Origin: Variovorax sp. PBL-E5
GTDB lineage: Bacteria; Pseudomonadota; Gammaproteobacteria; Burkholderiales; Burkholderiaceae_C
NCBI RefSeq assembly: GCF_901827185.1
Contig: NZ_LR594671.1
Span: 5,202,001 to 5,266,000 of the forward strand
DNA: 64,000 nt
Reading direction: 5' to 3'
A program made the translations under genes and the position numbers. Shown in pieces: positions 48,423-60,590 of the stretch. Under the pieces are notes generated by a model, which was not told where the DNA came from, searched no databases, and was given only the letters and a program-made list of their open reading frames with translations. Position 1 is the stretch's first letter. Every line of letters begins with the position of its first letter.

Positions 48423-48436
48423 CCGCGCCGCCCGAA

Positions 48437-48460
48437 GGGCCGCCGGCGGGCGGGCGGCCC
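48437..48460 (+). terminator. GC-rich hairpin after the glycogen operon
   Basis: GGGCCGCC (48437-48444) and GGCGGCCC (48453-48460) form a perfect 8-bp stem with an 8-base loop, 14 bases after the glgP stop. No T-run follows, so it is either a weak terminator or an RNA-stabilising hairpin. Confidence 0.45.
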
Positions 48461-48478
48461 GCGCCTTCGGTTCGAAAA

Positions 48479-48535
48479 ACCAAAGGGTGTTTTTGGTATT
48501 CGCGCATTGGCGACGGCCCGCGCAGTCCCTAGGAT
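48479..48535 (+). promoter_or_regulatory. predicted promoter and palindrome upstream of selC
   Basis: ACCAAA (48479-48484) and TTTGGT (48492-48497) form a palindrome with a 7-base centre. CGCGCATTGGC (48501-48511) follows, containing a -35-like TTGGCG (48507-48512). A 17-base spacer leads to TAGGAT (48530-48535), 12 bases before the tRNA. The same 11-mer, spacing and an upstream palindrome occur before the selenoprotein gene at 53858-53919. Confidence 0.5.
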
Positions 48536-48547
48536 GGTCCGCATCCT

Positions 48548-48642
48548 GGAAGGGACACACTCCCGGTGGAGTGGCCGGACTTCAAACCCGGAGTGGGTCG
48601 CTGGCGATCCTGTGTGGGTTCGACTCCCACTCTCTTCCGCCG
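48548..48642 (+). tRNA. selC: tRNA-Sec (anticodon UCA)
   Basis: Selenocysteine tRNA that reads in-frame UGA. It begins GGAAGGGA, which pairs with TCTCTTCC (48631-48638) as an 8-bp acceptor stem, longer than the usual 7 and diagnostic for tRNA-Sec. A long D-stem (ACTCC/GGAGT), an anticodon stem CCGGA with loop CTTCAAA, a long variable arm (about 48593-48611) and a T-arm GTGGG-TTCGACT-CCCAC follow. The discriminator is G48639 and the template continues CCG, so CCA is not fully encoded. It lies 44 bases before selA. Confidence 0.95.
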
Positions 48643-48685
48643 AGTCACTTGCCATGAACGCGCGCGCCACCGCCACCCTTCCATC

Positions 48686-50110
48686 ATGCTGACTTCGACC
48701 AGCCCGGCGCGCCGCGCCATTCCCGCGGTCGATGCGCTGCTGAAGGCGCCGGCCTTCGAGGCGCTGGCGCGGGACTTCGGCCGGCCATCGGTCCTGGCCT
48801 GCCTGCGCCAGCTGCTGGCCGAACAGCGCCGCCGGCTGGCGGCCGAGCGCGCGGCCACGGCGCCCGACGAAGAATCGCTGGCGGCCGAATGCGGCGAGCG
48901 GCTCGCGGCTGCCGCGCGGCCTTCGCTGCGGCCGGTGTTCAACCTGACCGGCACCGTGCTGCACACCAACCTCGGGCGCGCGCTCTACCCGGCCGAAGCG
49001 GTGGCCGCAGCGACGCAGGCGATGCTGCGGCCCGTCAACCTCGAGTACGACGTCGACGGCGCCGGCCGCGGCGAGCGCGACAGCCACGTCGAGGAGCGCC
49101 TGCTGCGCCTGACCGGCGCCGAGGCGGCCGTGGTCGTCAACAACAATGCCGCCGCGGTCTACCTCATGCTCAACACCGTGGCGGCCGGCCGCGAAGTGGT
49201 GGTGTCGCGCGGCGAGCTGGTCGAGATCGGCGGCGCATTCCGCGTGCCCGAGATCATGGCCAGCGCCGGCTGCGTGCTGCGCGAAGTGGGCACGACGAAC
49301 CGCACCCATCCGCGCGATTTCGAATCGGCCCTCGGCGAGCACACCGCGGCGCTGATGAAGGTGCACGCGAGCAACTACGAGATCCGCGGCTTCACGGCCG
49401 AGGTCGATGCGGCGGCCATGGCACGCATCGCCCACGCAGGCGGCCTGCCGATGATCGAGGACCTCGGCTGCGGCATGCTGGTGGCCCTCGAGGACTTCGG
49501 CCTGCCGCACGAGCCGACGCCGCGCGAGGCGCTCGCGGCCGGCGTCGACCTCCTCAGCTTCAGCGGCGACAAGCTGCTCGGCGGTCCGCAATGCGGCGTC
49601 ATCGTCGGCCGCAAGGAGCTGGTCGCGCGCATCCGCCGCAATCCGATGAAACGCGCGCTGCGGCTGGACAAGGTCCGCCTCGCGGCACTGGAAGCCGTGC
49701 TCGCGCTCTACGACGATCCGCAGCGCCTGCGCGCGCGGCTGCCGACGATGCGCCTGCTCACGCGCGGCCATGACGAGATCGCCGCGCAGGCGACGCGCCT
49801 TTGCGCTCTCGTGCAGGACGCCGTGGGCTCGGACGCCGAGGCGGAGGTCGCCGACTGCGCGAGCCAGATCGGCAGCGGCGCACTGCCGGTCGACACCTTG
49901 CCGAGCGCGGGCCTGCGTCTGACGCCGGTGCATCCGCGCGGCGCCGGCGTGGAAGCGCTGGCAACGGCATTCCGCCAACTCCCCGTGCCAGTGATCGGCC
50001 GCATCCGCAACAACGCGCTGTGGCTGGACCTGCGCTGCCTGGACGCGGCGCAGGAAGCGGAGTTCACCGGCCAGCTCGTGCACCTGCAGCGCCTGCGGGA
50101 CGAAGCGTGA
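48686..50110 (+). CDS. selA: L-seryl-tRNA(Sec) selenium transferase
   Basis: A 474-residue PLP enzyme that converts Ser-tRNA-Sec to Sec-tRNA-Sec using selenophosphate. The signature [18 protein letters not shown], the cofactor region [20 protein letters not shown] and the PLP lysine in [15 protein letters not shown] (about 295) are clear. The ATG at 48686 lacks a strong ribosome site, but the frame upstream is tRNA. selB overlaps its stop. selD, which makes selenophosphate, is not in the window. Confidence 0.96.
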
Positions 50111-51873
50111 TCGTCGCCACCGCGGGCCACATCGACCACGGCAAGACGACGCTGGTGAAGGCGCTCACCGGCGTCGACACCGACCGGCTGCCGCAGGAGA
50201 AAGCGCGCGGCATCTCGATCGACATCGGCTTCGCCTACTGGCGCACGCCCGGCGGCGCGCTGCTCGGCTTCGTCGACGTGCCGGGCCACGAGCGCTTCGT
50301 GCGCAACATGCTGGCCGGCGTCTGCGGCGTCGACTACGCGATGGTGGTGGTCGCCGCCGACGACGGCGTGATGCCGCAGACGCGCGAGCACCTGCACATC
50401 GTCGACCTGCTCGGTATCGGCCGCGGCATCGCGGTGATCACCAAGGCGGACCGCGTCGATGGCGCGCGGCTTCAGGCCGTCGAGCGCGAGGTGCGCGCGC
50501 TGCTGGCGGGCACCTCGCTCGAGGGCGCGCCGCTGCGGTCGGTCTCGGCCATCGGCGGCCAAGGCATCGCCGCGCTGCGTGACGAATTGGCCAGTGCGGC
50601 ATCGGGTTGCCGGCGCAGCGCGGTCCAGGGACGGCGCCTGCGCTACGCGATCGATCGCGCGTTTACCGTCGCCGGTGCCGGCACGGTGGTCACCGGCACG
50701 GTCTTCGACGGCATGGTGCGCGCCGGCGACCGGCTGCTGCTGTCGCCGGGCGGGCGCGAGGTGCGCGTGCGCGGCATCCAGAAGGACGGCGCGGCGGCAG
50801 AGCGCGCCGAGGCCGGCGAACGCTGCGCGCTCAACCTCGCGCGCGTCGAGCTGTCGCAGGTGCAGCGCGGCGACTGGGTGCTGCATCCCGAACTGCACGC
50901 GCCGACGACGCGGCTGGACGTCGAGCTGCAGGTGCTGGCCGCCGAGGCGCATGCGCTGCGCCACTGGACGCCGGTGCATCTGCATCTGGGCACGCGCGAC
51001 GTGACCGCGCGCGTCTCGCTGCGGCGCGGCGAATCGGTGGAGCCCGGCGGTCGCGCCTTCGCCCGCCTCGTCGTCGATCAACCGATCTCCGCGCTGCATG
51101 GCGACCGCTTCATCGTGCGCGACCAGTCCGCGCAGCGCACGGTCGGCGGCGGCCGGGTGCTCGATGCGTTCCCGGTGCCGCGCCGCCTGCCTGCCGAGGC
51201 ACGCCGGCGGCAACTGCGGGCGCTGGCTCTGCCCTCGGCGCTCGAAACCTTGCAGGCGCTGGTGGCCGGCGCGCCGGCCGGGGTGAACGCGGCGGCCTTT
51301 GCGCGCAATGTCAATCTCGATCCGGAGGCCTTCGCGCGGCTGTTGAAGCAGGCCGGACTCGCGAGCATCGGCACGGGCACGCAGGCGCTGGTGCTCACGC
51401 CGGCAGCCGCCGACGCAAGGCTGGCGCGCAAGCCGCAGGAGATGCCGGCCGACAACCCCGAGCACCTGCGCCTGTGGCAACTCGCGCAACCCGCACTGAA
51501 GCAGGCCGCGCGCACGGGCCTGAGCGTGGTGCAGCTGGCGCAGGCACTGGGGGTTCGCGACTCCGTGCTGCGCGACATGCTGCATCGCAAGGCACAGGCC
51601 GGCGACGCGGTGCGCGTCAACGACGAGCGCTTCTACCTGCGCGCGACGACGGACGAATTCATCGAGGTCGCGCGCGGCGTCGCGCAGGCCATGCCCGAGG
51701 GCCGCTTCACCGCGGGCCAGTTTCGCGACAGCGCCGGCATCGGCCGTGCGCTCGCGGTGCAGGTGCTCGAGGCGCTCGACCGCCTCGGCATCACCCGGCG
51801 CGTGGGCGACGTGCGCATGCTGCGCGCGGACCCGTCCTCTGCATCATCCGTCCAAGGAGAAAGATCCCCATGA
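50107..51873 (+). CDS. selB: selenocysteine-specific elongation factor
   Basis: A 588-residue translation GTPase that carries Sec-tRNA-Sec to UGA codons marked by a SECIS hairpin. It has the GTPase motifs [23 protein letters not shown] and ITKAD at the start, EF-Tu-like domains II and III at about 170-330, and C-terminal winged-helix repeats (about 370-588) that bind the SECIS. The GTG start at 50107 lies within the selA stop (GTGA), and the next gene overlaps its own stop (ATGA). The three genes should be one message. Confidence 0.95.
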
Positions 51874-52775
51874 GCGACACCTCATCGCACGACGTCGTCG
51901 TGATCGGCGCCGGCGCGGCCGGCTTGAATGCCGCGCTCGCGACCCTGCGCGCCGGGCTCGGCACCGCATGGCTCGAAGCGCAGATGTTCGGCGGCCTCGT
52001 GCTCAACGTGAACGAACTGGACGGCGCCATCCGGGGCAGCGGCGCCGAACTCTCGTCCACCTGGGCGGGCGACGTCATCGAGCTCGGCGGCGAGAACCTC
52101 GAGGCGGTCGCGAGCGGCATCGAGCGCGACGGCGATGCGCTGGTGGTCGTCAGCGATGCGGGGCGCCATCGCGCGCGCGCCGTCATCGTCGCTTCCGGCG
52201 CAGCGCTGAAGAAGCTCGGCGTGCCGGGCGAAGCGGAACTCGAGCACAAGGGCGTGTCCCATTGCGCCGACTGCGACGGGCCCTTGTTCCAGGGTCAGGC
52301 GGTCACGGTGGCCGGCGGCGGCGATTCGGCGCTGCAGTCGGCGATGGTGCTGTCCGGCTTCTGCAGCACGGTGCACCTGGTGCATCGGGGCGGCGCCTTC
52401 CGCGCGCAGCCGCATTGGATCGAGGCCGTCGGCACAGCGGCCAACATCGAGGTCCACTGGCACAGCGAAGTCACCGAAGTGCTCGGCACCGATGGCGTCG
52501 AAGGCGTGCGCGTGAACGGCGAGGCGATTCCGTGCAGCGGCTTCTTCGCCTTCGTGGGGTTGCAGCCGGCGAGCGGCTTCCTGCCCGCAGCCATCGCGCG
52601 CGATGGGCGAGGCGCGGTCGTCACCGCGCAGAACCTGGAGACGGCGATGCCGGGCGTGTTCGCCGCCGGTGCCGTGCGCGCGGGCTGCGGGGGTTCGCTG
52701 GCCGAGGCCGTGGCCGACGGTGAAGCCGCGGCGCGCGCGGTCGTCGCGCAACTGGCGGCGCGCACGAAGGCCTGA
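51870..52775 (+). CDS. thioredoxin-reductase-like flavoprotein
   Basis: A 301-residue FAD/NAD(P)H-dependent oxidoreductase of the low-Mr thioredoxin reductase family. FAD site VVIGAGAAGLNAALATLRAG, redox pair C132-A-D-C135 in SHCADCDGPLFQG, NAD(P)H-site loop VAGGGDSALQSA and the C-terminal FAD block GVFAAGAV. It has AAGGAGA and an ATG overlapping the selB stop, so it is made with the Sec machinery. It probably does not just duplicate the housekeeping trxB. Reduction of selenium compounds or of the nearby selenoprotein is an attractive inference. Confidence 0.88.
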   Translation: MSDTSSHDVVVIGAGAAGLNAALATLRAGLGTAWLEAQMFGGLVLNVNELDGAIRGSGAELSSTWAGDVIELGGENLEAVASGIERDGDALVVVSDAGRHRARAVIVASGAALKKLGVPGEAELEHKGVSHCADCDGPLFQGQAVTVAGGGDSALQSAMVLSGFCSTVHLVHRGGAFRAQPHWIEAVGTAANIEVHWHSEVTEVLGTDGVEGVRVNGEAIPCSGFFAFVGLQPASGFLPAAIARDGRGAVVTAQNLETAMPGVFAAGAVRAGCGGSLAEAVADGEAAARAVVAQLAARTKA

Positions 52776-52874
52776 TCGGCCGCGCGCGGGCCGGCGTCAT
52801 TCGGATATTGCGAAAAGACCCTTTGCGCCCCGGTCTGGTGCGCGCCGAGGCTGCTCTCTACACTGGGCCGCACC

Positions 52875-53855
52875 ATGCACCGCAAACTCTTTCTTGCCGC
52901 GCTCGCAACGGCTGCGTTCGCCCTCTGCGGCGGCGCGGCCGCGCAAGGTTTTCCCAGTGCCCGGCCCGTCACGCTGGTATCGCCCTTCCCCGCGGGCAGC
53001 GGCAGCGACCTCGCCGCACGCGCCGTGGCGCCCGGCCTGTCGGACGCGCTGGGCCAGTCGGTGGTGGTGGAGAACAGGGCGGGCGCGGGCGGCTCGATCG
53101 GCGCGCAGTACGTCGCCAAGTCGAAGCCGGACGGCTACACGCTGTTCCTCGCCAGCCTGAGCTTCTCGGTGCTGCCGAGCCTGATGGAACTCGGCTTCGA
53201 TCCGGCCAGGGACTTCGAAGCGGTGACGCTGATGGGCGAGCAGAGCATGGCCTTCGTCGTGCCGCCCTCGCTGCCCGCGAACTCGATGGCGGAACTCGTG
53301 GCGCTGGCGAAAGCCAGGCCGGGCAAGCTCAACTACGCGTCGGCCGGCATCGGCAGCATCGGCCACCTGACGGGCGAGCTGCTCAAGAACGAACGCGCGC
53401 TCGACATCGTGCATGTGCCGTTCAAGGGCACGCCCGAAGCGATGACGGCGATCATGACCGACGACGTGCAGATGGGCCTGATCGCGATGCCGACCGTCGA
53501 ACCGCAGATCAAGGCCGGCAAGGTCAAGGCGCTCGGCGTGACGGGCCGCAAGCGCTACCCCGGCCTGCCCGACGTGCCGACCCTGGCCGAGGCGGGCTTC
53601 CCGAGCATGAGCGACTCGGTCTGGTATGCGGTGTTGGCGCCCGCGGGCACGCCGCCGGAAGTGATCGCACGGCTCAACGCCGCGTTCCGCCAGGCGCTGA
53701 CCCAGCCCGACACCGTGCAGCGGCTGGATCGCTCGGCCAAGACCGAGGCCGCCTTCAGCACACCGCAGGAAGCGACCGCTTACGTGCGCACTCAACTGGT
53801 CAAGTGGAACGGCGTGGCATCGAAGGCGGGCCTGAAGCCGGAACACGCGAAGTAG
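52875..53855 (+). CDS. Bug-family (TctC) periplasmic solute-binding protein
   Basis: A 326-residue exported protein with a signal peptide ending GAAAQGFPSARP. Bug blocks: VTLVSPFPAGSGSDLAARAV, VVENRAGAGGSIGAQYV, VHVPFKGTPEAMTAI and the C-terminal APAGTPPEVIARLN. It binds a small ligand, usually a carboxylate, for a tripartite tricarboxylate transporter; no TctAB is nearby. It sits 99 bases after the flavoprotein and 98 before the selenoprotein gene. A second Bug gene follows the selenoprotein. Confidence 0.92.
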   Translation: MHRKLFLAALATAAFALCGGAAAQGFPSARPVTLVSPFPAGSGSDLAARAVAPGLSDALGQSVVVENRAGAGGSIGAQYVAKSKPDGYTLFLASLSFSVLPSLMELGFDPARDFEAVTLMGEQSMAFVVPPSLPANSMAELVALAKARPGKLNYASAGIGSIGHLTGELLKNERALDIVHVPFKGTPEAMTAIMTDDVQMGLIAMPTVEPQIKAGKVKALGVTGRKRYPGLPDVPTLAEAGFPSMSDSVWYAVLAPAGTPPEVIARLNAAFRQALTQPDTVQRLDRSAKTEAAFSTPQEATAYVRTQLVKWNGVASKAGLKPEHAK

Positions 53856-53857
53856 AA

Positions 53858-53919
53858 GGAAAAAGCGAATGCTGTTTTCCACCGCGCGCATTGGCACCCC
53901 GAGGGGCCGTGCCTAACAT
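53858..53919 (+). promoter_or_regulatory. predicted promoter and palindrome upstream of the selenoprotein gene
   Basis: GGAAAA (53858-53863) and TTTTCC (53875-53880) form a palindrome with an 11-base centre. CGCGCATTGGC (53885-53895) contains a -35-like TTGGCA (53891-53896). A 17-base spacer leads to TAACAT (53914-53919). The layout copies that before selC. The translation start is 34 bases further. Confidence 0.5.
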
Positions 53920-53953
53920 CGACCGCAGCAGCCCACCGAAAGGATCGCACCCC

Positions 53954-55666
53954 ATGGAAACGATGTCCGTCATCAGCCCGATCGGCGCCGAAGCCGTCGA
54001 GCAGAAGAACCTCGCCAAGCGCCTGGACACCCTCAACGGCAAGGTGGTCGCCGAAGTCTGGAACGAGGACTTCAAGGGCGACATCATGTTCCCGATCTAT
54101 CGCGAGCTGCTCAAGGAGCGCTTCCCCGACGTGAAGATCGTTCCCTACACCGAGATCCCGTATGCGTCGCTGAAGGGCACTCCGTCCTACCAGCGCGAGG
54201 TGCTCAACCAGATCACGGCCGCGCTGAAGGCCAGGGGGGCCGACGCCGTCATCACCGGCAACGGGGGCTGAGGCACCTGCACACCGGCCGCGGTGCGGCC
54301 GGCAGCAGAAGCAGAGAAGATCCTGGGCATCCCGTCGGCCGTGGTGTCGATGCCGGGGTTCAACATGGTGGGCCAGCTCGCCGCGAAGGCGGCCGGCGTG
54401 CCGGACGTGCCGGTGGTCGAGTACCCGGGCGCGGTCGGGGTCGACCATGCGGAGATCCGCGACAAGATCAGGAACGTGCTGTTCGAGCGCATCGTCAACG
54501 CGCTCACCAGGCCGATCAAGCCGCGCACGCCGGGCAAGGCGAGCGAGTGGGATTCGAAGCGGGTGGTGTTCGAGGGCAGCTTCGAACAGATCAATGCGCA
54601 CTTCCACGAGATGGAGTGGAGCGACGGCCTGCCGATCGTGCCGCCGACGCTCGAGCGCGTGCGGGAATTCCTGCGCTACACCGACCGTTCGCCTGAAGAG
54701 GTGATCGCGGTGCTGCCGCAGATGAACCTGCGCGCCACCGTCTGGAACATCGCGGCCAACGGCGTGATGGCGGGATGCAAGCCGCAGACCATGCCCGTGC
54801 TCATCGCGCTGGTGGAAGCCCTGCAGGAGGACCAGTACAACCTCGACAACATCGGCACCACCTGGGGCGTCATGCCCTATGTCTTCCTCAACGGGCCGAT
54901 CGTCAAGGAGCTGGGCTTCAACGATGCGGCGGGCCTGATCTCGCGCGGCGCGAATCCCTCGCTCGGGCGCGCGCTGGGGCTCATCATCCGCAACATCGGC
55001 GGCTACCGCCCGGCGAAGAACCAGATGGGGACCTTCGGCTACCCGATCAACTTCGCCTTCGCCGAGAACGAGGATCTCAACCCGTGGGAGCCGTACCACG
55101 TCGAGAAGGGCTTCGACCGCCACGCGAGCACGGTCTCCGTGAGCACGACGATGAACTGGGGCTTCCAGCCCTCGCCCTACACGCGCGACGACCAGGGCGG
55201 CGCGGAGTGCGCGCTGATGCAGATGTGCCGCGACGCGCTGCGCAAGCCGGCGCTCGCGCTGTTCTCCGAACGCGGCCCGACCGGCTTCGTGAACGACATC
55301 GTGTTCGTCCTCGCGCCGCCGGTGGCCAAGGTGCTGGCCGAAGCCGGCTACTCGAAGGACGACATCCGCCGCTACATCTGCGAGCACACCACCGTGCCGC
55401 GCCGCTACATGGACTTCGAGCTGAAGTACACGATGGCGGAAGTCCACACCATCGAGGAGAAGATCCAGCTCGGGACCTTCCCGCCGGAATTCGCCGTGGG
55501 GCCGGACGACCCGATCAAGGTCATGCCCGGACCCGAGTACATCGAGATCCTGGTGGCCGGCGACCCCGGCCGCAACCGGATCAAGACGCTCGACTCCGGC
55601 TACACGCGCGTCACCACGAAGGAGATCAAGTTGCCCGCCAACTGGGCCAGCCTGCCGAAGAACTGA
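53954..55666 (+). CDS. UGSC-family selenoprotein (Sec encoded by in-frame TGA)
   Basis: A 570-residue protein if TGA at 54269-54271 is read as selenocysteine (residue 106). The frame before it (105 codons, ending ADAVITGNGG) and after it (464 codons) are the same, and no other stop occurs. The motif is Sec106-Gly-Thr-Cys109, a close variant of the U-G-S-C motif that names the family. A SECIS-like hairpin starts 12 bases downstream. The first about 180 residues form the redox domain. The rest (SDGLPIVPPTLERVREFLRY, MAGCKPQTMPVLIALVEAL, TMNWGFQPSPYTRDDQGGAE) is a large second domain I cannot assign. AAAGGA precedes the ATG. Bug genes flank it, the second only 30 bases away. The reaction is unknown. 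Confidence 0.85.
54269..54308 (+). promoter_or_regulatory. Sec UGA codon and SECIS-like hairpin
   Basis: After TGA (54269-54271), CCGGCCGC (54284-54291) and GCGGCCGG (54295-54302) pair perfectly around the loop GGT (54292-54294). A lower stem CTGC (54277-54280) / GCAG (54305-54308) closes it, with ACA opposite CA as an internal loop. The loop lies 20 bases after UGA. E. coli-type SECIS elements have a similar distance and a G-U in the apical loop, the site SelB reads. Confidence 0.75.
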
Positions 55667-55696
55667 GGTCGAAGAACCCGAAGCCGGAGACAAGAC

Positions 55697-56674
55697 ATGA
55701 ACCCCTCTCGCCGCAAGATGGCGCTGGCGGCGGTGGCCGGCGCGCTGCTGCTGCCCGCGCTGGCCACCGCCGAGGCCGCCTGGCCCGACAAACCGGTGCG
55801 CGTCATCGTGCCGTGGGCGCCGGGCGGCATCACCGACATCCTCGCGCGGCTGGTCGCCGCCAGGATGTCGGCGCAGCTCGGGCAGCAGTTCGTGATCGAC
55901 AACCGCGGCGGCGCCGCCGGCAACATCGGCGCCGAGATGGTGGCCAAGGCGCCGGCGGACGGCTACACGCTGCTGCTCACGAACCCGGGCGCCTTCACGA
56001 CCAACCAGTACCTCTACAAGGACATGCCGTACAGGCCGGAAGACTTCGCGCCGATCATCGTGCTCGCGACTTTTCCGAACGCGCTGATCGTGAACAAGGA
56101 CCTGCCGGTGAAGTCGGCCGAGGAGCTGATCGCCTATGCGAAGAAGCATCCCGCGAGCCTCAACGGCGGCTCCTCTGGCACCGGGAGTTCGGGCCATCTG
56201 TCGCTGGAGATGTTCAAGGCCATGACCGGCGCGCCGATCCAGAACGTGTTCTACAAGGGCGCCGCGCCGACCAAGGTCGACCTGTCCGCGGGCCGCATCC
56301 AGGTCGTGCTGGACAACGTGCCCGGCTACCTGAGCGAGCTGCAGTCGGGCAGCGTGCGGATGCTGGCCGTCGGCACCCGAACGCGCTTGCCCACCTACCC
56401 GGACGTGCCCACGCTGGACGAAGCCGGCGTCAAGGGCTACGAGTCGTCGGTGTGGTACGCCATCGCGGCGCCGAAGGCCACGCCGCAGGCGATCATCCGC
56501 AAGGTCCATGCCGCGGCGCAGGCCGCGCTCGACACGCCCGACGTGCAGGAGAAGCTGCGCCAGTTGCAAGGCATCGTCGTCGGCGGATCGCCCGCCGATG
56601 CGGCGAAGTTCTTTGCCGTGGAATCGAAGCGCTGGAAGGCCGTCATCGATCGGGCGGGCATCAAGGCCGAGTGA
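55697..56674 (+). CDS. Bug-family (TctC) periplasmic solute-binding protein
   Basis: A 325-residue exported protein with the signal peptide end ALATAEAAWPDKPVRV, then VIVPWAPGGITDILARLV, VIDNRGGAAGNIGAEMV and FYKGAAPTKVDLSAGRIQ. GGAGAC precedes the ATG, 30 bases after the selenoprotein gene, so the two are almost surely cotranscribed. Its sequence differs from the Bug protein at 52875, so they may bind different ligands. It converges with an SDR gene over 23 bases. Confidence 0.92.
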   Translation: MNPSRRKMALAAVAGALLLPALATAEAAWPDKPVRVIVPWAPGGITDILARLVAARMSAQLGQQFVIDNRGGAAGNIGAEMVAKAPADGYTLLLTNPGAFTTNQYLYKDMPYRPEDFAPIIVLATFPNALIVNKDLPVKSAEELIAYAKKHPASLNGGSSGTGSSGHLSLEMFKAMTGAPIQNVFYKGAAPTKVDLSAGRIQVVLDNVPGYLSELQSGSVRMLAVGTRTRLPTYPDVPTLDEAGVKGYESSVWYAIAAPKATPQAIIRKVHAAAQAALDTPDVQEKLRQLQGIVVGGSPADAAKFFAVESKRWKAVIDRAGIKAE

Positions 56675-56697
56675 AGGCCGAGTGAGCGCGCGGCGCG

Positions 56698-57483
56698 CTA
56701 GCCGCGGCGAAAGAACCCGGCCGCCGCGCCGCTGTCCAGCAGCAGGTTGTGGCCCGTGATCGAGCGCGCCGAGGTGGACGCGAGGAACACGGCCGCATCG
56801 GCGAAATCCTCCGGCGTCGGCAGCCAGCCGAGCGGCATCGATGCCGCGACCTCGCGCACCGCCTGATCAACGTCCCTGGCGCCGACCGCTTCCAGCTGCG
56901 TGCGCAGGAAGGGCGTGTCGCTCGACGCCGGCGCAATGGCGTTCACGCGCACGCCCTGCGGCGAATACTCGAGCGCCAGCGCCTTCGTCAGCCCGACGAT
57001 CGCATGCTTGGATGCGGTGTACACGCTGCGCTGCGCCCGCGCGGTGACGCTCTGCAGCGAGCTGGTGAAGATCAGGCTGGCGCGCGGGCTGCGCACGAGG
57101 CTGCGCAGCGCGGCCTGCGCGCAGTAGATCGTGCCGAGCACGTTCACCTCGACGATGCGCCGGATGCGTTCGGGGTCGGCCTCGGTGAGCGGTCCCGCGT
57201 AGCCCAGGCCCGCGTGCGCGAGGAACACATCGATCGGCGCGCCGAAGAAGGATTCGGCCTGCGCCACCAGCGCCGCGCAGGCCGCGGGGTCGGCGATGTC
57301 GCACACCCGCGCCGTCGCGCGCTCGCCGCTCGCATCGATGGCCTGGGCACAGGCGCGCGCGGCCTCGCCGTCGATGTCCGCCACGACCACGCGCGCGCCC
57401 TCGGCGACGAAGCGCTTCGCGGCCGCGGCGCCCAGCCCGCGCGCCGCGCCGGTCACGACGGCGTGATAGCCCTGCAGCTGCAT
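56698..57483 (-). CDS. short-chain dehydrogenase/reductase
   Basis: A 261-residue classical SDR. It has the nucleotide motif VTGAARGLG, the cofactor-choosing Asp in VVVADIDG (favouring NAD), catalytic Ser in IFTSSLQS and YTASK. It acts on alcohol or ketone groups; the substrate is unknown. Start at 57483, 7 bases after the end of a second SDR, so they form a pair. It is convergent with the Bug gene at 55697. Confidence 0.9.
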   Translation of the reverse strand: MQLQGYHAVVTGAARGLGAAAAKRFVAEGARVVVADIDGEAARACAQAIDASGERATARVCDIADPAACAALVAQAESFFGAPIDVFLAHAGLGYAGPLTEADPERIRRIVEVNVLGTIYCAQAALRSLVRSPRASLIFTSSLQSVTARAQRSVYTASKHAIVGLTKALALEYSPQGVRVNAIAPASSDTPFLRTQLEAVGARDVDQAVREVAASMPLGWLPTPEDFADAAVFLASTSARSITGHNLLLDSGAAAGFFRRG

Positions 57484-57490
57484 GGCGCGC

Positions 57491-58270
57491 TCAGGCGGTC
57501 TTGCCGCCGTCGACCAGCAGCGAGGCGCCACTGACGAAAGAGGCCTCGTGCGACAGCAGGAACAGCGCCGCGTTCGCCACCTCCTCCGGCCGCGCGGCGC
57601 GGCCCAGCGGGTTGCCGGCGCTGCGCACGCGCATGAGCTCGTCGATGTCCTTGCCCTTGGTCTCCTCCTCGTCGGGACGCGACACCAGCACGCGCAACAT
57701 CGGCGTGTCGGTGGTGCCGGGGCAGACCACGTTGAAGCGGATGTTGTCCGGCCCGTAGCGCTTGGCGAGCGAACGGGCCAGGCCGATCAGCCCCCACTTG
57801 GCGACCGAATAGAGCGGACTGAAGGGCGAACCGATCACGCCGGAGGTCGACGAGGTGAACAGCACGCTGCCGCCGCCGCATTCGCGCATCATCGGGATCG
57901 CCTCGATGACGCTGGCCAGCGCAGCGCGCACGTTGAGGTTCATCGCGACGTCGAACTCGTGCAGGTCCAGCCCCTCGACGCGCGACACCGACGGGTGGCC
58001 GGCATGGGCCCACAGGAAATCCAGCCGGCCGAAACGCTTCTTCGCCTCGTGGACCATGCCGCGCGCGAAGTCCTCGTCCATCAGGTTGCCGGCGAGCGCG
58101 AAGGCCCGGCCGCCTGCGGCCTCGATCACGGCGGCGACTTCGCCGGCCTTTGCCTCATCGAGGTCCACCACCGCCACCGCCGCGCCTTCGGCGGCGAAGC
58201 GAAGGGCGCCTGCACGGCCCATGCCGGAAGCGGCTGCCGTGACGATACCGAACCGGTCGGCCATGCGCAT
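57491..58270 (-). CDS. short-chain dehydrogenase/reductase
   Basis: A 259-residue SDR with nucleotide loop VTAAASGMG (the usual TG starts as TA), VAVVDLDE (NAD type), FTSSTSG and the YSVAK motif. GAGGAG 7 bases upstream selects the ATG at 58270 over one six bases later. First of two SDR genes; they could carry out consecutive or opposite steps on one compound. It is divergent from a Tat-exported transglutaminase-like gene over 147 bases. Confidence 0.9.
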   Translation of the reverse strand: MRMADRFGIVTAAASGMGRAGALRFAAEGAAVAVVDLDEAKAGEVAAVIEAAGGRAFALAGNLMDEDFARGMVHEAKKRFGRLDFLWAHAGHPSVSRVEGLDLHEFDVAMNLNVRAALASVIEAIPMMRECGGGSVLFTSSTSGVIGSPFSPLYSVAKWGLIGLARSLAKRYGPDNIRFNVVCPGTTDTPMLRVLVSRPDEEETKGKDIDELMRVRSAGNPLGRAARPEEVANAALFLLSHEASFVSGASLLVDGGKTA

Positions 58271-58338
58271 GCTGATCTCCTCGTTGAAGTCGCGCCACTG
58301 TAGGATCGCAGGTCGCCGCGCGAAAGCGCGATTCGGCG

Positions 58339-58355
58339 AAACCAGTTTTCGGTTT
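58339..58355. promoter_or_regulatory. palindrome in the divergent SDR / transglutaminase region
   Basis: AAACC (58339-58343) and GGTTT (58351-58355) with a 7-base centre lie midway between the divergent genes. The T-N11-A layout and position would suit the LysR regulator encoded at 59550. It resembles, loosely, the palindrome before selC (ACC...GGT). Confidence 0.4.
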
Positions 58356-58417
58356 TTGCGCCTCCCGCTTCGGGCGGCGCGGGACCATGATCGCGAGCAT
58401 CTCAAGAGGAGACCTTC

Positions 58418-59527
58418 ATGCACACACGCCGCCATTTCCTTCGCCAGGCCTCTGCCGCTTCCGCCGCGGCGGCCTTGCCGCTGGCGCTGCCGGAGTTCGC
58501 CTTCGCGGCGCCGCAGCGCAGCTTCGAGCCCGGCTCGCAGCGCTGGCGCACCTTCGACGTGACGACGCAGGTCGAGCTGGCGCTGCCGCCCGGCGCCGCG
58601 CAGGTCTGGGTGCCGGTGCCTTCGATCGATACCGACTGGCAGAAATCGCTGTCGACCCGCTTCTCGAGCAATGGCCAGGCCGCCATCGCCTGGGATGGCG
58701 CGCAGGGCGTGCAGATGGTCCATGCCCGCTTCGAACCGGGCACCGCGAAGGCGATGCTCGAGGTGACCAGCCGCGTGAGCACGCGCGATCGCGCGGTCGA
58801 CTGGAATGTCCGCGGCCAGGTCGCGGACGACGCGGCCACGCATGCCGCATGGACGCAGCCGACCGCGCTGATCCCCACCGACGGCCTGGTGCGCACGGCC
58901 GCGCTGCATGCCACGCGGGGTGCAGAGGGCGATGTCGCGAAGCTGCATGCGATCTACGACTGGATCGCGAGCAACGTGTACCGCGAGCCCTCCGTGCGCG
59001 GCTGCGGCGAAGGCGACGTGAACGCCATGCTGAAGCTCGGCAGCCCCTCGGGCAAATGCGCCGACATCAATGCGCTGTTCGTCGGCATGTGCCGCTCGGT
59101 CGGCATTCCCGCGCGCGACCTCTACGGCGTGCGCCTCGCGCCCTCGGCCTTCGGCTACAAGGAACTCGGCGGCAACTCCGCGCAGCTCGCGGCCGCGCAG
59201 CACTGCCGCGCGGAAGCGTACGTGAAGGGGCACGGCTGGGTCGCCATGGATCCTGCCGACGTCACCAAGGTCATGCGCCAGGAAACGGCGGTCTGGATCC
59301 GGGACGTCTCGGACCCGGTCGTCGCGCCCGTGAACAAGAAGCTGTTCGGCTGCTGCGAAGGCAACTGGATGGCCTACAACGACGCACACGACGTCGTGCT
59401 GCCGGGCGCCAGCGGCAAGCCGATGGGCTTCCTGATGTACCCGGTGGCGGAGACCTCCGCGGGCCGCGTGGACCCGTACGCGCCGGAGCAATTCCGCTAC
59501 AGCATCTCCGCGCGCGAAGTCGCCTGA
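58418..59527 (+). CDS. Tat-exported transglutaminase-like protein
   Basis: A 369-residue protein. Its leader TRRHFLRQASAASAAAALPL is a twin-arginine signal. A beta-rich domain (about 35-165) precedes a transglutaminase-like core with Cys in GSPSGKCADINALFVGMC, His in QHCRAEAYVKGHGWVAMD and Asp in MDPADV. Such cores act as peptidases or amidases as often as cross-linkers. Export by Tat suggests folding in the cytoplasm, perhaps with a cofactor. The substrate is unknown. It is divergent from the SDR pair. Confidence 0.85.
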   Translation: MHTRRHFLRQASAASAAAALPLALPEFAFAAPQRSFEPGSQRWRTFDVTTQVELALPPGAAQVWVPVPSIDTDWQKSLSTRFSSNGQAAIAWDGAQGVQMVHARFEPGTAKAMLEVTSRVSTRDRAVDWNVRGQVADDAATHAAWTQPTALIPTDGLVRTAALHATRGAEGDVAKLHAIYDWIASNVYREPSVRGCGEGDVNAMLKLGSPSGKCADINALFVGMCRSVGIPARDLYGVRLAPSAFGYKELGGNSAQLAAAQHCRAEAYVKGHGWVAMDPADVTKVMRQETAVWIRDVSDPVVAPVNKKLFGCCEGNWMAYNDAHDVVLPGASGKPMGFLMYPVAETSAGRVDPYAPEQFRYSISAREVA

Positions 59528-59549
59528 GCCGCGGCGCGCGCTGTCTTCT

Positions 59550-60467
59550 TCAGGCGCGCTGGGCGCGCACGCCGATCACGGCGTTCGCGCTCGGTCTGCG
59601 CTGCGCATCGAACACCTCGAAGAGAAAGTCGGTGAAGGCCTTCACCTTCGCCGAGCCGACGCGCGACTTCGCCATCACGACGTGGAAGGTCCGCATGTCG
59701 GTCGTCCACTCGGGGTAGACCTGCACCAGCGTGCCTTCGGCGAGCGAACCGTTCACGAACACGTCCAGCACGTACGACACGCCCGCGCCCTGCTGCGTCG
59801 CCATCACGAGCGCGTCGCTGCTGTTGAAGTGAAGCGGGCCCTCGGGACGGATCTCGATGTCTTGCGCGTCCTTGCGGAGCCGCCACGGATTCACCGAGCG
59901 GCGTTCTTCCGGCAGGATGCCGATGCAGCCTCGGCGGTCCAGGTCGCCGGGATGTTCCGGCAGCGTGGCGACGATCTGCGGCGCGCAGCACACCACGTAG
60001 CGGCTCTCGTAGATCGGGCGGGCCACCAGGTCGGCATCTTCCACCTGGTCCATGCGGATCGCCACGTCGATGCCGCGCTCGATCAGGTGGTGCGGCTGGT
60101 TGGTCAGCGTGACCGCCGTGGCGATGTCCGGGTAGCGCGCGGCGAACGCCGGCAGCGCGGGGCACAACAGGGTATGGCCGAGGGAGATCGGCGTCTCGAT
60201 GTGCAGCCGGCCGCGCAAGCCGCCGACCTGGCTGCGGATCTCGTCCTCGATGCGCGCGACGCTGCCGAGCAGTTCGCGCGCACGCAGCAGCAGGGTCTGG
60301 CCTTCTTCGGTGACGCGCAGGCGGCGGGTGTCGCGATCGATCAGCGTGACGTCGAGATGCCGCTCCAGGTTGCGCACACAGGTGGTGACCGTCGCATTCG
60401 CCAGATCCAGCGACTCGGCCGCACGCGAGAAGCTGCCGCATTCGGCAACGCGCACGAAAACTTCCAT
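59550..60467 (-). CDS. LysR-family transcriptional regulator
   Basis: A 305-residue regulator. The N-terminus MEVFVRVAECGSFSRAAESL starts slightly inside the usual HTH: upstream in-frame bases encode QELKIDRLWG as in relatives, but a TAG a few codons further and no start codon leave this ATG as the only option. The effector domain covers about 90-290. It faces the transglutaminase gene convergently and probably controls the SDR/transglutaminase or Bug/selenoprotein genes. Confidence 0.87.
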   Translation of the reverse strand: MEVFVRVAECGSFSRAAESLDLANATVTTCVRNLERHLDVTLIDRDTRRLRVTEEGQTLLLRARELLGSVARIEDEIRSQVGGLRGRLHIETPISLGHTLLCPALPAFAARYPDIATAVTLTNQPHHLIERGIDVAIRMDQVEDADLVARPIYESRYVVCCAPQIVATLPEHPGDLDRRGCIGILPEERRSVNPWRLRKDAQDIEIRPEGPLHFNSSDALVMATQQGAGVSYVLDVFVNGSLAEGTLVQVYPEWTTDMRTFHVVMAKSRVGSAKVKAFTDFLFEVFDAQRRPSANAVIGVRAQRA

Positions 60468-60590
60468 GCCCCAGAGACGATCGATCTTCAGCTCCTGCAG
60501 CGAAGATCCATTCTAGGCCGCCCCGTCTCTCGAGCCCGATGACTTGTTCCAGGAATACCGCGGAACCGGCTTCGCCGGGCCGCTGGCATG

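Follow-up and report, generated by a model that had tools for sequence, protein, structure and literature searches.

In a 64,000-nucleotide stretch of the Variovorax sp. PBL-E5 genome (contig NZ_LR594671.1, positions 5,202,001 to 5,266,000; hereafter the window), a gene of the UGSC family at 53954..55666 on the forward strand is interrupted by an in-frame TGA at codon 106 (54269..54271, +) that almost certainly encodes selenocysteine (Sec). We base this sequence reading on the conservation of UGA or a Cys codon at this site, a hairpin resembling a Sec insertion sequence (SECIS) downstream of it, a local dip in synonymous change, the presence of selC, selA and selB upstream and that of selD elsewhere in the genome. 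The protein adds a member to a family already described; what is new here is the acquired Sec island in which its gene lies and a flavoprotein partner that recurs beside related genes.

The in-frame TGA and its conservation

With the TGA translated as Sec, 53954-55666 (+) forms one frame of 570 residues with a terminal TGA stop, and codon 106 is the sole in-frame stop within the 570 codons. An earlier note on this DNA had joined the frames 53954-54271 and 54272-55666 into a single Sec protein with a UxxC redox motif, and the translation bears out this reading of the sequence, the motif around codon 106 being GNGG-U-GTC-TPAAV. The start at ATG 53954 is supported by the open reading frames of two other loci (L012 and L031), both of which begin at the same Met; the frame is also open 5' of this ATG, as a 487-residue open reading frame from TTG 52808.

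The TGA is kept in close relatives, namely in three further Variovorax genomes (89-90% identity) and in a betaproteobacterial metagenome-assembled genome (L012; 81%), and distant full-length relatives with TGA at the site were also found (L014, L018, L021 and L090). Other distant relatives have Cys at the site, either as CGTC (P0038 and P0040, 47-48% identity) or as CSTC or CGSC. The Thr that the earlier note had remarked on in place of the Ser of U-G-S-C is therefore real but not confined to Sec proteins, because Cys homologues carry CGTC. In an alignment of 20 rows (A1), 19 of them 26-90% identical to the first and with Sec printed as C, columns 106 and 109 hold Sec or Cys in 20/20 rows; homologues lacking a conserved Sec or Cys at position 106, which the earlier note had named as grounds for abandoning its claim, did not appear. 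The gene thus combines a conserved in-frame UGA with Cys homologues, the pattern by which a bacterial selenoprotein gene is recognized.

The window and three further genomes (L069/L031, L071/L030/L010 and L072/L032/L011), with 9-12% difference between their proteins, are identical over the 45 nucleotides (nt) starting at the TGA. This bears on the possibility that a Cys codon (TGC or TGT) became TGA through gene decay or a sequencing error. Such a change would involve one base, and Cys homologues exist; however, the same TGA is present in the three other Variovorax genomes and in L012, no other stop interrupts the 570 codons, and the identity downstream of the TGA likewise argues against it, so that we consider this explanation extremely improbable. 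Across five genes, synonymous differences were found in 2/56 comparisons in the codon windows starting at codons 105 and 106, versus 473/1997 overall, although this dip is only the third lowest in the gene, windows near codon 465 being lower and those near codon 293 similar.

The SECIS-like hairpin (54284..54302, +) has an 8-bp stem and an apical loop, GGU, starting 23 nt past the initial U of the UGA. The downstream fold reaches -24.9 kcal/mol (z score -2.71), and only 2/200 shuffled sequences were as stable. When Sec and Cys sites were compared, the best apical loop started at 20-24 nt, counted from the initial base of the UGA, in 13/14 Sec rows versus 7/15 Cys rows, and hairpins were more stable in the Sec rows (14 versus 15 rows; one-sided p = 0.012), the difference being modest. 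For this comparison the Cys candidate L094 was dropped as it has no motif, the L092 row was anchored three residues early, and several of the Cys rows are closely related. Single-site folds were no better than shuffles at L012 (z -0.18), L075 (z -0.15) and L027 (z -0.66), and the best hairpin at L014 was weak (-2.2 kcal/mol). An ungapped RNA alignment of the 14 Sec sites yielded no consensus structure because the stems sit a few nt apart, and single folds were used instead.

Alternatively, the TGA may be a genuine stop that separates a 105-residue protein from a 457-residue protein starting at GTG 54293, neither containing Sec. The open reading frame listing does split the gene, and 144 of 162 database proteins (from the best 120 of 2138 and the best 120 of 2053 matches) are 380-475 residues long, 99 of the 144 beginning with an [MVL]R-type start just 3' of the motif. 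However, the cut would fall inside the UGSC domain (residues 6-185), Cys homologues read through the site, the UGA and the DNA downstream of it are conserved in several genomes, and selC, selA and selB lie in the same island; a genuine stop is thus very improbable. The lengths of these database proteins agree with the further claim of the earlier note that gene callers would divide the gene: most entries examined from these best-120 lists look truncated at the Sec codon, and gene callers appear to split such UGSC genes at the TGA. Each short entry may be a Sec gene cut in this way. Some relatives, including P0134 and proteins of haloarchaeal plasmids, carry the NCBI label 'UGSC family (seleno)protein'. 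Longer UGSC-family proteins also exist (P0122, 888 residues; P0129, P0130 and P0150, about 655 residues), possibly with extra domains or signal-like N-termini.

Membership of the family is indicated by the Pfam model UGSC (PF24696), which matches residues 6-185 with 79.6 bits against a gathering score of 25; the 570-residue protein scores 42.2 bits against NCBIfam NF041046, below its equivalog cut-off of 125. A 2008 survey (PMC2398784) counts UGSC-containing proteins among the major selenoprotein families, giving 255 Sec forms and 21 Cys forms, and mentions a fusion designated UGSC/Unknown_1. Elsewhere, 33 UGSC selenoproteins in 26 organisms are reported (PMC5029168), and the family is listed in both PMC13188914 and PMC9312934, the former describing the functions of the group that includes UGSC as largely uncharacterised. 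The C-terminal domain of the present protein (residues 198-570; 54545..55663, +) may be Unknown_1 of PMC2398784, and this UGSC fusion was very probably in print before our analysis. This domain has no Pfam match and, among the chains compared, no strong match in the PDB; its AlphaFold model has a predicted local distance difference test score (pLDDT) of 93.7. The earlier note was right to call it uncharacterised but put its size at about 390 residues, whereas our own boundary gives about 373.

Three haloarchaeal plasmids and plasmid 3 of Variovorax sp. SRS16 encode the UGSC domain and the C-terminal domain as separate neighbouring genes, an arrangement which suggests that the two domains work together. 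On the SRS16 plasmid, a 169-residue 'hypothetical protein' (L095:10069-10578) is a stand-alone UGSC domain with CGSC (PF24696, 109 bits) and adjoins a lone C-domain gene. The conjugative IncP plasmid p2-T1 of Acidovorax sp. T1 has a UGSC-type gene with an in-frame TGA (L090:8640-10400; GD-U-GSC), of which the gene table has only the part before the TGA; IS1071 and IS91-type transposases lie nearby.

An island between glgP and exbD

The gene lies in an island inserted between glgP and exbD (48423..60545, ends approximate). These two genes, identified with the Pfam models Phosphorylase and ExbD, are 12.2 kb apart in the window. Of the 101 genomes of the genus, 97 had an exbD match; the comparison covered the 30 best loci, among them that of the window, and in 25 of the 29 others glgP is 40-181 bp from exbD, leaving the site empty. 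In the remaining four, glgP was not found in the stretch covered, one stretch being cut short. The island junctions showed no linking repeats beyond chance.

At its glgP end the island contains selC (tRNA-Sec; 48548..48641, +), recognized by ARAGORN and by Rfam RF01852 (70.4 bits), followed by selA (L-seryl-tRNA(Sec) selenium transferase; 48686..50110, +; TIGR00474, 569.9 bits) and selB (Sec-specific elongation factor; 50107..51873, +; TIGR00475, 425.4 bits). The start of selA is probably ATG 48686, as the listed GTG 48566 falls within selC, and that of selB is probably GTG 50107. These three genes are 2.1-5.4 kb upstream of the UGTC gene on the same strand, and with selD located elsewhere in the genome, selA, selB, selC and selD are all present. 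The ATG of the following gene, which encodes a thioredoxin-reductase-like flavoprotein binding flavin adenine dinucleotide (FAD) and nicotinamide adenine dinucleotide (phosphate) (NAD(P)), overlaps the selB stop (51870..52775, +; PF07992; CADC motif). The two Bug/TctC-type substrate-binding proteins that the earlier note had recognized as neighbours are confirmed by PF03401 matches on both sides of the selenoprotein gene (52875..53855, + and 55697..56674, +). Beyond them lie two short-chain dehydrogenase genes matching PF13561/PF00106, one with an uncertain start (56698..57531, -; conserved in L011, L012 and L031) and one with a putative start (57491..58270, -; conserved in L011 and L012), then a gene for a transglutaminase-like protein (58418..59527, +; PF01841; present in L011 too) and, as the final gene before exbD, a LysR regulator gene (59550..60467, -; PF03466/PF00126; with a relative in L012 and L070).

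Positions 48475-58467 of the window are syntenic with another Variovorax genome, G1030, at 79-83% nucleotide identity and with a gap of <0.3 kb. The cassette of G1030 is at another site, about 2.09 Mb on contig C1, which also has exbD, at 5.97 Mb. The LysR relative is ~16 kb further on in G1030 and ~4.6 kb in L012, beyond extra FAD-dependent oxidoreductases. A second, divergent UGSC selenoprotein gene with the motif UGSC (34-37% identical) occurs at L010:3-1523 (-), L038 and L071:8368-9966; in G976 (Variovorax sp. WDL1, where the UGTC orthologue reaches 91% identity) and G1002, such a gene with TGA lies on the other side of selC-selA, where the window has glgP.

Formate dehydrogenase is the usual Sec user in the genus. 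Its model (TIGR01553) is matched over the cut-off in 35 of the 101 genomes, 32 of the 35 having a full-length gene with exactly one in-frame TGA and three a fragmented gene with a TGA in one piece each. selA is present in 39/101 genomes, and five of these are without formate dehydrogenase: the window's genome, G976, G1002, G1030 and G1032 (88% complete). A close UGTC orthologue is found in exactly four genomes (the window's, G976, G1002 and G1030), all four of which carry selA and lack any match to formate dehydrogenase at E 1e-60; among the other selA genomes, 34/35 have formate dehydrogenase over the cut-off. In the window's genome, eight weak matches to the formate dehydrogenase model were found, none with a stop. 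G1026 has no selA match, and its partial formate dehydrogenase match with both TGA and TAA (G1026:C2:933188-934174) resembles a decaying Sec gene.

SelA of the island is 82-84% identical to the SelA proteins beside the three other close UGTC genes and 54-56% identical to 17 other SelA proteins of the genus, which form a starred clade apart from the cassette SelAs. The tree compared 17 of the 35 other SelAs, and the long branches of its distant rows make the deeper order unsure. In this island the Sec-decoding trait has apparently travelled with a selenoprotein other than formate dehydrogenase.

Flavoprotein partner and predicted chemistry

Gene context was compared in 27 loci from 24 genomes or records; these loci exclude the window and include four of the cassette type. 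A thioredoxin-reductase-like gene is present in 11 of the 27, always 0.25-3.2 kb from the UGSC or C-domain gene and never farther within stretches of 12-20 kb. In 8/11 the gene is found within 2.5 kb, a range covering 32% of the bases that lie outside the UGSC/C-domain genes, and 8/11 loci with such a gene are not of the cassette type. Cys versions (L077, L080 and L092) also carry it, with Pfam confirmation for two. Plasmids of Variovorax sp. SRS16 and V. boronicumulans have the flavoprotein gene first, then Bug, (short-chain dehydrogenase) and the UGSC/C-domain gene. selA and/or selB are nearby in G529 (L073), G853 (L086), G056 (L088) and G011 (L078), and neighbours that return across taxa are substrate-binding proteins, short-chain dehydrogenases, LysR regulators, CoA-transferases and acyl-CoA dehydrogenases.

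The best mechanism we can propose, with an even chance of being right, is that of a distantly PrdB-like selenol reductase recycled by the island flavoprotein. SelB, tRNA-Sec and SelA of the island would insert Sec at UGA 106 with the hairpin as SECIS, and the full-length protein is predicted to be translated in the cell. Sec106 and Cys109 would act as the redox pair of the UxxC motif where the central beta-strand of the N-terminal UGSC domain ends, and the selenol would attack or reduce a small substrate lying between the UGSC and C-terminal domains. The selenenylsulfide (Se-S) so formed would be re-reduced by the flavoprotein with NAD(P)H, while the Bug proteins may bind the substrate or aid its uptake, together with a putative permease, and the short-chain dehydrogenases may process it further. 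The PrdB model (TIGR04483) matches the protein with E 6.5e-5, and hhalign aligns a UGSC profile with PrdB-like proteins at a probability of 89.8 (E 1.8e-6), the two positions of the redox motif coinciding. Reductive chemistry of the PrdB/GrdB type, the role given to the C-terminal domain and the substrate class are all predictions. In G688 (Pseudomonadota), a PrdB-like protein (L105) has an in-frame TGA replacing the first Cys of CPVC, and a second match there also has one TGA.

More broadly, we tentatively propose, with doubt slightly outweighing confidence, a mobile and self-sufficient Sec cassette whose parts, namely selC-selA-selB, a flavoprotein reductase of its own, substrate-binding proteins and a Sec reductase of two domains, are transferred jointly. 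A soil bacterium receiving it would acquire, in one step, Sec as 21st amino acid and a new catabolic reaction that depends on it, and the C-terminal domain would represent an enzyme domain of a new kind, pairing with a PrdB-like selenol.

Several points weigh against the proposed mechanism. Variovorax is aerobic, and glycine and proline reductases serve anaerobic fermentation. The PrdB score is 22.5 bits, under the equivalog cut-off of 300; no PrdA/GrdE-like partner, such as PrdA with its pyruvoyl group, was recognized among the identified neighbours, where no targeted search was made; and the C-terminal domain matches no known enzyme, its part in catalysis being a guess. At E 1e-6, 16 of the 27 context loci, L012 included, have no thioredoxin-reductase-like gene. 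Finally, G977 combines selA, formate dehydrogenase and a distant UGSC gene with TGA near selB (L037), so that a UGSC selenoprotein need not be accompanied by dedicated machinery.

It is also possible, if somewhat unlikely, that the protein is a general thiol-redox or detoxifying selenoprotein, reducing peroxides or disulfides, rather than a catabolic reductase of carbon compounds. The UxxC motif, the thioredoxin-reductase-like partner and the thioredoxin-like fold guessed in PMC2398784 would suit such a role; however, the neighbours in different taxa are of the types listed above, a large second domain is present, and the N-terminal domain of the model resembles PurE/receiver-type alpha/beta folds, though this comparison is no test against a thioredoxin fold. 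In another scheme, which we consider unlikely, the UGSC domain would activate a group or hand it on, carried for instance as a Se-carboxyalkyl or acyl selenide, to a hydrolase or lyase in the C-terminal domain, with no net reduction.

Comparison with known systems

UGSC proteins have been included in selenoprotein surveys since at least 2008, and the survey passages that name the family give no function for it. The island supplies leads on that function, namely a flavoprotein that is probably the reductase partner, neighbours of substrate-binding and catabolic types and a regulator, and the presence or absence of the gene across the genus offers a comparison through which it can be tested by deletion.

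Transfer of the Sec-decoding trait as selA-selB-selC has been described (PMC1794560), the selenoprotein gene that accompanies it usually being fdhA. The island is similar in that selC, selA and selB are clustered with a selenoprotein gene, but this is the UGTC gene and not FdhA, and the insertion-free site is visible in most of the other loci of the genus. The flavoprotein shares with thioredoxin reductase (TrxB) the Pyr_redox_2 type and a CxxC motif, here CADC; in contrast, it scores 216.4 bits against TIGR01292, under the equivalog cut-off of 343.45, and its gene adjoins UGSC and sel genes. With PrdB/GrdB, the GrdB motif being STUG (PMC10838667), the likeness is a distant homology at the motif, Sec106 and Cys109 aligning with both Cys of the PrdB-like CPVC, whereas the score is far under the PrdB cut-off and a different second domain is fused here. 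With the UGSC family and its UGSC/Unknown_1 fusion the present protein shares the UxxC Sec motif, a score above the Pfam cut-off, a large fused domain of unknown type and the existence of both Sec and Cys forms, and it differs from them in having UGTC instead of UGSC and in scoring under the NF041046 cut-off.
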